Source: Ignavibacteria bacterium (GTDB lineage: Bacteria; Bacteroidota; Ignavibacteria; Kapaibacteriales; Kapaibacteriaceae). From it: a stretch of DNA of 49,282 bases. The notes under the pieces are model-generated. The model searched no databases. It had not been told where the DNA came from and saw only the letters and a program-made list of their open reading frames with translations. Numbering within the stretch: position 1 is the first letter of the stretch; each line of letters begins with the position of its first letter. Of this stretch, positions 1-49,282 are shown piece by piece. A program made the position numbers and the translations under genes. The stretch spans positions 1-49,282 of the forward strand of contig JABMNI010000065.1 of the NCBI GenBank assembly GCA_013204605.1. Reading direction: 5' to 3'.

Positions 1-48
1 AATGCCAATGCCAATGCCAATGCCAATGCCAATGTCAATGTCAATGTC
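1..48. repeat. Hexanucleotide tandem repeat (AATGCC)5(AATGTC)3
   Basis: The window opens with five direct copies of AATGCC followed by three of AATGTC. It lies downstream of the mgtE stop codon and may extend beyond the window edge. Related AATGNN units in the opposite orientation occur on the other side of mgtE. No coding role is seen. Confidence 0.9.
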
Positions 49-65
49 CAATAAATAATGGGCAA

Positions 66-47005: not shown

Positions 47006-47087
47006 TAAGAACAATGTAACCAATGCCAAAGTTGCATGTTGTAGTCTCCGGCGTCCTGTGTACAACTTTTGCGAAAAGGAGATGGTA

Positions 47088-49282
47088 ATGAATAATTTAG
47101 CCAATATGTTTGTCATCGAGAGTCATCGAGAGTCATCGAGAGTCATCTCTCGAAGTTTGTGGATCACCTTTGGGTTTATAATCTGGACATCAACTGTTTG
47201 GATTAACGAAGCAAACGCCCAACCTTGGCGAGCAGAGCCGAGCATGCAAACAGGGCAATTACCAACAGCGCCGCTGAACACCGAGAATGTTCGGGTTTGG
47301 CAAAGGGTCGCCGAAGCTGATGATGGATCTGCTGAACAAAAAATTCCGCAATATCACAGGGCGGGGCAGCAATGGGGCTTGTATGCAGCAAGGATTCCGA
47401 TGGCATGGGAAATAACGATGGGAAGTAGTGACGTTCGTGTATTACTCCAAGATCAATGGTGGGGCCCTTCGAGTAACGGAACAATCATTCCGTATGGGAT
47501 AACAACTGGAATTGGATTAAATCCTTCCAACGGTGAAACGGGTAGCGGCAGAGGGGATCTTGTAATGAAAATTCGACAAAAGCAATCAGATGGTTCGTTT
47601 GCGATTCTCGACGACGCATTGCAAAACAGCGGCCCTAATGGAAACATTCTGGTTTTCGAAAAGTTCGACGCATCTACTCAAACATGGGTGCAGGAACTCG
47701 GCGCTGCAACTGGAACTGAATATTCTTTAAGGCTGTCAAATTATGGGCATGGTGTACAATGCCTTTCAATCATGGCCTCAGCTCTAAATGCAAAAGGGAT
47801 GATAGGTGTCGCTCCGGGATGTTCTTATATGTTGGGAGACGGTGACCTAAAAGCCCCCTTGCTTTATGATTTTGACCCGACGGTAATAGGGATGCAAACT
47901 GCGCATGTGGTGAGCAGCCAAACGAGTCTGGACTGGGGACACCAGCTAAAACAGTCTAGTTATATAGCTGTTGGCGCTGGAAACTTAATCGGCGCCAGTC
48001 ATTTCCAGTATTACGATGGCTTGTCGAATGAGACGATATATAAGGGCTGTATCCCTGTTGAAAAAAGGGTGGATGTTGGGGCTTGGTTAGATACCAGATC
48101 GATAAAAGCTGGCGTGTGGAACGATGGAATCTTGATTCGAGATAATTCAAATGTCGGAATCACGAAAGAGTGTACAACCTTCGATCGTCGTCGCATAGAT
48201 CTAGCTAAAACCAACCTATCATCACCTTACTATTATTGGCATCAACAGAAGTATCCGCCCGCCACATTAGAGACACCGTCCAATATACAGTACAAAACCT
48301 CTGGCACGTGTGGTACGAATGGTGATATTGCCGATGGTTGTTACCGTATGCTGGGGCTTCCACTTGGATTTCCTGGAACTGAACATGTGGATGTTTTTAA
48401 ATATGTTGACGTTGTTGTTCCGAGCAGTATACTATGTGAAGGGAGCGGTGAATTGTACAAACAGCATGAAACCGCTCAATCTTATGTAATCCCCTTTCTC
48501 AATGGCATCATTGCACTAATGAGATCGGTAGATATAACGGGTGGCGTAAACGTTACGTCGGAATTATATCCATACACTTATGGTACAGCATGTAATGAAG
48601 AGTTTATGGCCGCGCGTCCGATATACACAAATTCCAAACTTCAAACAACCAATAAGACAGTTACCAGGTGTGAGCTACATCGTAGAGGAAGAGACATAAT
48701 CACATTTACCGCAAGGAAAGTACCAAATAAAGACTACAAATACACCGTACAGGAGGGAGATCCCATGCGAAGATCGTGGGTGTATAACAATGGATATGGT
48801 TTAGTAGATGCGTATCGATGTGTAGCAAATTCCATCCCGGCAAAAGGCAAGAATATCTATGGTAACAACGACCAGTTAGACTTTGCAAACGGCACAGAGA
48901 TAGGTGGTAAGAAATACTTGCATTTGGGGGCATGGGGCAGATTTGATAATGCCTATGACAACAATAGCCTGTTGTTCGATACGCCAGCTTATGGTTTTGT
49001 CCCAGAGGGCTTTGGTGCAGAAGTTAGTTGTGGTAAGACTGTCATTGGGTCCAGTGTATACACCGTAGGTACGGGCAATGTGGCTTGCATTGATGGTATT
49101 GTAGAATCTTATACTGGTGGTTCAATAAAGACTGTTGCAAACACGAACGGCCGAATCCTTTTCAGCGGATACTTTAAAAGTACAGGTGTTATTGAGGGCA
49201 ATTTGAGCCTAGGTGACGTGGTGATAAGAACCGGCAAAATTAAACTGGTGCCAAGCACTGGGATGGAGTGTCGAATCTGTAC
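47088..49282 (+). CDS. Divergent Cys-rich subtilisin-like (S8) protease, 3' end outside window
   Basis: An open frame of 731 codons runs from the ATG at 47088 to the window edge with no stop. A good ribosome-binding site (AAGGAGATGG) stands just before the ATG. A signal peptide is visible at about residues 23-45, cleaved near ANAQ. QWGLYAARIPMAWEITMGSSDVRVLLQD matches the start of S8 domains, giving catalytic Asp122. His221 lies in NYGHGVQCLSIMASA, the oxyanion Asn299 in VGAGN, and Ser465 in AQSYVIPFLNGIIALM, spaced as in SxxxPxxxG. The usual HGTHVAG and GTS motifs are degenerate. At least 13 Cys follow residue 220, so disulfides are likely. The end is beta-rich and its function is unknown. 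Residues 10-22 are encoded by a tandem repeat. Confidence 0.85.
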   Translation, partial: MNNLANMFVIESHRESSRVISRSLWITFGFIIWTSTVWINEANAQPWRAEPSMQTGQLPTAPLNTENVRVWQRVAEADDGSAEQKIPQYHRAGQQWGLYAARIPMAWEITMGSSDVRVLLQDQWWGPSSNGTIIPYGITTGIGLNPSNGETGSGRGDLVMKIRQKQSDGSFAILDDALQNSGPNGNILVFEKFDASTQTWVQELGAATGTEYSLRLSNYGHGVQCLSIMASALNAKGMIGVAPGCSYMLGDGDLKAPLLYDFDPTVIGMQTAHVVSSQTSLDWGHQLKQSSYIAVGAGNLIGASHFQYYDGLSNETIYKGCIPVEKRVDVGAWLDTRSIKAGVWNDGILIRDNSNVGITKECTTFDRRRIDLAKTNLSSPYYYWHQQKYPPATLETPSNIQYKTSGTCGTNGDIADGCYRMLGLPLGFPGTEHVDVFKYVDVVVPSSILCEGSGELYKQHETAQSYVIPFLNGIIALMRSVDITGGVNVTSELYPYTYGTACNEEFMAARPIYTNSKLQTTNKTVTRCELHRRGRDIITFTARKVPNKDYKYTVQEGDPMRRSWVYNNGYGLVDAYRCVANSIPAKGKNIYGNNDQLDFANGTEIGGKKYLHLGAWGRFDNAYDNNSLLFDTPAYGFVPEGFGAEVSCGKTVIGSSVYTVGTGNVACIDGIVESYTGGSIKTVANTNGRILFSGYFKSTGVIEGNLSLGDVVIRTGKIKLVPSTGMECRIC
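47112..47153 (+). repeat. 10-bp tandem repeat (GTCATCGAGA, 3.6 copies) and hairpin in the protease 5' end
   Basis: GTCATCGAGA occurs three times at 47112, 47122 and 47132, plus a partial copy at 47142. The last part folds into a 7-bp stem, TCGAGAG-TCAT-CTCTCGA (47136-47153). The unit is not a multiple of three and lies between the ATG and the signal peptide, so copy-number changes would shift the frame of the protease. Confidence 0.85.

Follow-up and report, generated by a model that had tools for sequence, protein, structure and literature searches.

A divergent subtilase gene behind a repeat-bearing leader

The window, that is, the whole stretch of 49,282 nucleotides that was analysed, ends in a forward-strand gene whose ATG at 47,088 is preceded by a good ribosome-binding site and opens a single frame up to the end of the contig (C62). 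The 3' end of the gene is missing because the contig stops at position 49,282. The features of the locus are listed below; residue counts refer to a 28-row family alignment described in the next section.

47059..47090, + strand: shared leader with promoter-like TGTACAACTTTTGC, ribosome-binding site AGGAGATG and ATG (genome-wide pattern search, DNA alignment of four loci)
47088..49280, + strand: ORF of a divergent S8 peptidase, 731 aa, intact, 3' end cut by the contig end
47088..47219, + strand: signal peptide, its n-region long, repetitive and rich in Arg; cut predicted from the sequence between ANA and Q45
47112..47147, + strand: 10-bp tandem repeat GTCATCGAGA, 3.6 copies, spanning codons 9-20, with the reading frame dependent on the number of copies (simulation)
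47358..48827, + strand: S8 catalytic domain with lineage-specific insertions (family alignment, models, fold comparison)
47451..47453, + strand: Asp122 codon, triad (Asp in 26/28 rows, Glu in 2/28)
47748..47750, + strand: His221 codon, triad (His in 28/28)
47820..47822, + strand: Cys245, a Cys position widespread in the family (20/28)
47982..47984, + strand: Asn299 codon, oxyanion hole, GAGN context (Asn in 24/28; Thr in the closest paralog)
48171..48173, + strand: Cys362, the other widespread Cys position (20/28)
48480..48482, + strand: Ser465 codon, nucleophile, motif AQSYVIP (Ser in 28/28)
48828..49280, + strand: beginning of a beta-rich C-terminal region (DSSP of models, alignment with paralog P0002, in which the region runs on for about 900 aa)

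The window protein is a member of a divergent S8 clade

A first-pass annotation, made from the sequence alone, had described a divergent subtilisin-like protease in which Asp122, His221, Asn299 and Ser465 could be placed. The ORF, coordinates and residues are as it described them, and the family alignment agrees. Searched alone, the protein matched no Pfam model even at E 10 and no NCBIfam model, and a PDB sequence search returned nothing useful. The S8 profile search that the annotation had proposed thus failed for the single protein and succeeded through a paralog profile and through relatives. The absent Pfam match is a limit of sensitivity and not the loss of a defining residue.

The family alignment comprised 28 catalytic regions from the same genome and from class relatives, with five canonical subtilases included. 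The window protein carries the Asp-His-Ser triad in S8 order together with the oxyanion-hole Asn. Its closest paralog, P0002 on contig C35 (1665 aa, counted from the first start), shares 51% identity with it. An alignment of three paralogs from this genome keeps D122, H221 and S465 without exception, a similarity well beyond chance. With the three-paralog profile, relatives were detected in 30 of the 149 genomes searched, the host genome included, from family to class level; they include a MAG labelled 'Candidatus Kapaibacterium sp.' and another labelled 'Bacteroidetes bacterium'. No relative was detected in the viral contigs searched, and no paper joining Kapabacteria and subtilisin turned up in the literature collection that was searched.

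Because the alignment includes canonical subtilases, three tests were run without canonical queries. Against the PDB, the three-paralog profile retrieved subtilases only, with mirolase as the best match (1.1e-5) and AK.1 at 2.7e-4. In a profile-profile comparison, the window protein and its C35 paralog matched the canonical subtilase group at E 1.6e-6. When the canonical rows were left out of the modelling (pTM 0.81, mean pLDDT 66), the predicted structure superimposed on mirolase with Z 19.2 over 251 aligned residues (rmsd 3.7). The model built with the canonical rows gave Z 20.9 against solved subtilases over 263 residues (rmsd 3.2). Mean pLDDT of the predicted models was 62-66, the large insertions being of low confidence. 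The structure prediction suggested in the first pass therefore recovered a subtilase fold, at Z 19-21 to solved subtilases. As judged from alignment, profiles and predicted models together, the gene product is a very divergent but real subtilisin-type peptidase of family S8.

The annotation had also observed that the family strings HGTHVAG and GTSMAAPH are largely replaced, and HGVQCLS and AQS indeed stand in their place. It had gone on to suggest a new S8 subfamily, a proposal that holds for a divergent clade and no further: most relatives score to PF00082 (21 of the 28 rows), and within the class the Ser motif grades from GTSASAP through GNSRSVP to the AQSYVIP of the window protein. Since the motifs grade in this way from the canonical GTSxAxP, the alignment describes, instead of a new fold, a divergent clade of S8 within the Kapabacteria lineage, in which the triad is kept and the surrounding motifs drift. 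The clade illustrates how much a subtilase can change while its triad stays in place, past the reach of the Pfam model.

The tally of at least 13 Cys after residue 220 was likewise right: there are 14 (residues 225, 245, 321, 362, 408, 418, 450, 502, 528, 578, 648, 667, 728 and 731), all past that point. Beyond C245 and C362, most are confined to the protein's own lineage. With no more than these two positions widespread, the proposal of a new, disulfide-rich subfamily was dropped.

A shared leader with frameshifting repeats

The first-pass account lacked the 10-bp tandem repeat that occupies 47112-47147, within the first 20 codons. The leader pattern TGTANAACTTTNNCNNNNAGGAGNTGNNAATG, allowing up to three mismatches, occurs at only four places in the 2.69-Mb genome, and the reversed control gave none. 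The four loci are unlinked: the window gene, P0002 on C35, and one place each on contigs C71 and C68. Since C71 ends and C38 begins in the same 10-bp repeat, C71 and C38, which carries the paralog P0003, are probably the halves of a single locus that an assembly gap has split. The four leaders align over about 120 nt, even though no S8 match was seen in the protein at C68. At that locus (L103:4473-7005) the leader stands ahead of the gene for an exported protein of 787 aa, which has an HEVAH motif and a sorting domain that scores below threshold; by sequence it is a putative M6-like metalloprotease.

The leader repeats have units of 10 or 7 bp, every one of which leaves a remainder of one when divided by three. 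In a whole-genome search, the 10-mer tandem pattern was confined to the leader loci and the 7-mer to C35. The general repeat background was surveyed in about 411 kb of DNA from the same genome, where the other 7-, 8- or 10-bp tracts inspected fall between genes or immediately after a stop codon. Among 22 other genomes of the family, none of them of the same genus, nothing comparable to the leader was found except one match with three mismatches, and relatives of the protein in other genomes have no such repeat at their gene starts.

Other repeats were also recorded. The heptamers ATTCGTA, AATTCGC and CAGTTAG form intergenic tandem tracts at other places in the genome (L083:4205-4236, L083:15550-15588, L088:1-58 and L097:12166-12253), and some of these tracts are at contig ends. 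A hexamer repeat (AATGCC, 8.5 copies) occupies window positions 1-52, at the very start of the contig.

Paralogs, partner genes and export

The second paralog, P0003, is a full-length protein of 1737 aa, 39% identical to the window protein over a part. It ends in a Por_Secre_tail type IX secretion system (T9SS) sorting domain (27.7 bits against a cut-off of 27); the same domain is present in two relatives (L059 and L060), and a search of P0002 gave no match to it. The first-pass remark that a sorting domain could not be seen in the truncated gene is thus borne out, the contig stopping short and the full-length paralog carrying one. The host genome encodes type IX machinery, with SprA_N above its cut-off and a PorU-like match below its own. 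As the full-length paralog has a sorting domain, we infer type IX export for the window protein, whose own C-terminus lies beyond the window.

A gene of about 600 codons lies directly downstream of both P0002 and P0003 on the same strand (L004:631-2412 and L005:60-1946), and in C35 it overlaps the S8 paralog by 4 nt. Matches of the C38 partner to BNR are weak and fall below the cut-off; the C35 partner matched no family and shows only distant similarity to the C38 partner. The C-terminus of the window gene, which the first-pass annotation had expected in an adjacent contig, was sought with the C-terminal part of P0002. This query retrieved only P0002 and a 146-aa S8 C-terminal fragment on C3 (within the region L022:4113-7387, at a contig end), and the rest of the window gene was not found in this assembly. 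The fragment lies between two partner-gene copies, one of them truncated, and is possibly the continuation of the window gene's locus or a recombination relic.

Translation of the window gene is very probably phase-variable

Simulated changes in copy number indicate that the window gene is ON at present and that only multiples of three units keep its frame. The gene thus combines a tandem repeat in the 5' coding region, a unit that is not a multiple of three and a copy number that sets the frame, as slipped-strand switching calls for. C35 is OFF and would be restored by the loss of one unit or the gain of two; C68 is OFF and would be restored by the gain of one or the loss of two. Both OFF genes keep long frames apart from that of the repeat (1665 and 787 codons), which suggests recent or reversible silencing.

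In the mechanism that we propose, a Sec signal peptide would take the peptidase across the inner membrane, and the type IX system would carry it across the outer membrane to the cell surface or beyond. With the 10-bp repeat just after the start codon, only one copy number in three would leave the downstream codons in frame, and slipped-strand mispairing that adds or removes a unit would turn the protein on or off. Together with the three other unlinked genes that bear the same leader, the window gene would form a small group whose exported products, S8 proteins in at least three cases, switch independently. Translation of the window gene is very probably phase-variable on this reading, although we infer the switching itself from one assembly, and a draft assembly can misstate how many copies a repeat has. 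Some product could come from internal starts that lie downstream of the repeat, and the tracts of the window gene (36 nt) and C68 (31 nt) are short, so modest switching rates are expected.

Taken as a whole, the window gene likely encodes an S8 serine peptidase (clan SB) that is exported by the T9SS and whose translation is phase-variable through the repeat. More tentatively, and somewhat short of an even chance, the leader may be a portable 5' cassette (promoter, ribosome-binding site, start and a frameshifting repeat in the signal-peptide n-region) that in a single genome of the Kapabacteria lineage has been placed before several genes for exported proteins, among them S8 proteases and an unrelated protease-like protein, giving an independently switching, type IX-exported repertoire of surface proteases.

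Two readings dispense with switching. The protein could be a constitutively secreted S8 peptidase and the leader repeat a neutral remnant or merely a positively charged n-region: the window gene is in frame, its tract has just 3.6 copies, relatives lack repeats, and the Arg-rich repeat peptide ESHRESSRV would be tolerable in an n-region. Against this, frameshifting units of two lengths are kept at four unlinked leaders, two loci are out of frame with ORFs otherwise intact, and neutrality leaves the restriction of the repeats to the leader unexplained, so that we regard constitutive secretion as quite unlikely. Decay could also account for the out-of-frame genes, which together with the truncated C3 fragments would then be pseudogenes of a family whose leader spread by recent duplication. 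The 146-aa fragment and truncated partner gene on C3 and the lost oxyanion Asn of the C35 paralog fit such a history; the C35 and C68 ORFs, intact apart from the repeat frame, speak against it and make it improbable to our minds.

A further alternative leaves the switch in place and concerns catalysis, which is not certain because a propeptide-sized region is missing and the nearest paralog has lost the oxyanion Asn. Most relatives have about 165-220 aa between signal peptide and core, whereas the window protein, like a few others with a short stretch, has fewer (about 46 aa), and the C35 paralog has Thr where the window protein keeps Asn. Both points, and the replacement of GTS by AQS and of HGTHVAG by HGVQCLS, would suit a binding protein of S8 fold that has lost catalysis and is governed by the same switch; a binding protein with a retained triad was one option of the first-pass annotation. 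However, the window protein retains all four catalytic residues, and in a clade whose other positions are highly variable His and Ser never change and Asp hardly does. A dead binding protein is therefore unlikely, and proteolytic activity, which the residues favour, is probable.

Repeat slippage as a means of phase variation is best known in pathogens adapted to their hosts; the familiar route in Bacteroidota is DNA inversion. If true, the switching of several exported proteases by repeats that shift the frame would extend the mechanism to a poorly studied lineage and would predict population-level variation in secreted proteolysis.

Comparison with known systems

Members of peptidase family S8 (PF00082), such as mirolase of Tannerella forsythia and fervidolysin, share with the window protein the fold, the order Asp-His-(Asn)-Ser and the family-conserved residues. 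Mirolase, its best sequence match, is also among its best structure matches. The window protein differs in scoring below PF00082 detection, in its largely replaced His and Ser motifs, in its large insertions and lineage-specific Cys, and in the missing propeptide-sized region.

A literature search found no direct precedent for a repeat-switched type IX cargo, a negative result of little weight. Tandem heptamers are known from Beggiatoaceae, Cyanobacteria and some Bacteroidetes (PMC4679880) and resemble, as 7-bp units, those in the C35 leader and elsewhere in this genome; they are intergenic and have no reading-frame effect, unlike the leader repeats. Two precedents come from Neisseria meningitidis. 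There, slipped-strand mispairing within a coding tract makes expression of nalP, the gene of a surface subtilase, phase-variable (PMC5472700); the window gene likewise would encode a surface subtilase with a coding-tract repeat, its switching here read from sequence. NalP is an autotransporter with a poly-C tract, whereas the window gene belongs to a type IX cargo family whose 10- and 7-bp units follow the start codon. In autA and autB, AAGC repeats lie immediately after the start codon (PMC5472700), as the repeat does here, although the units differ and the products are autotransporters unrelated to the window protein. By analogy, the arrangement at the window gene is that of the known contingency loci nalP and autA/autB.
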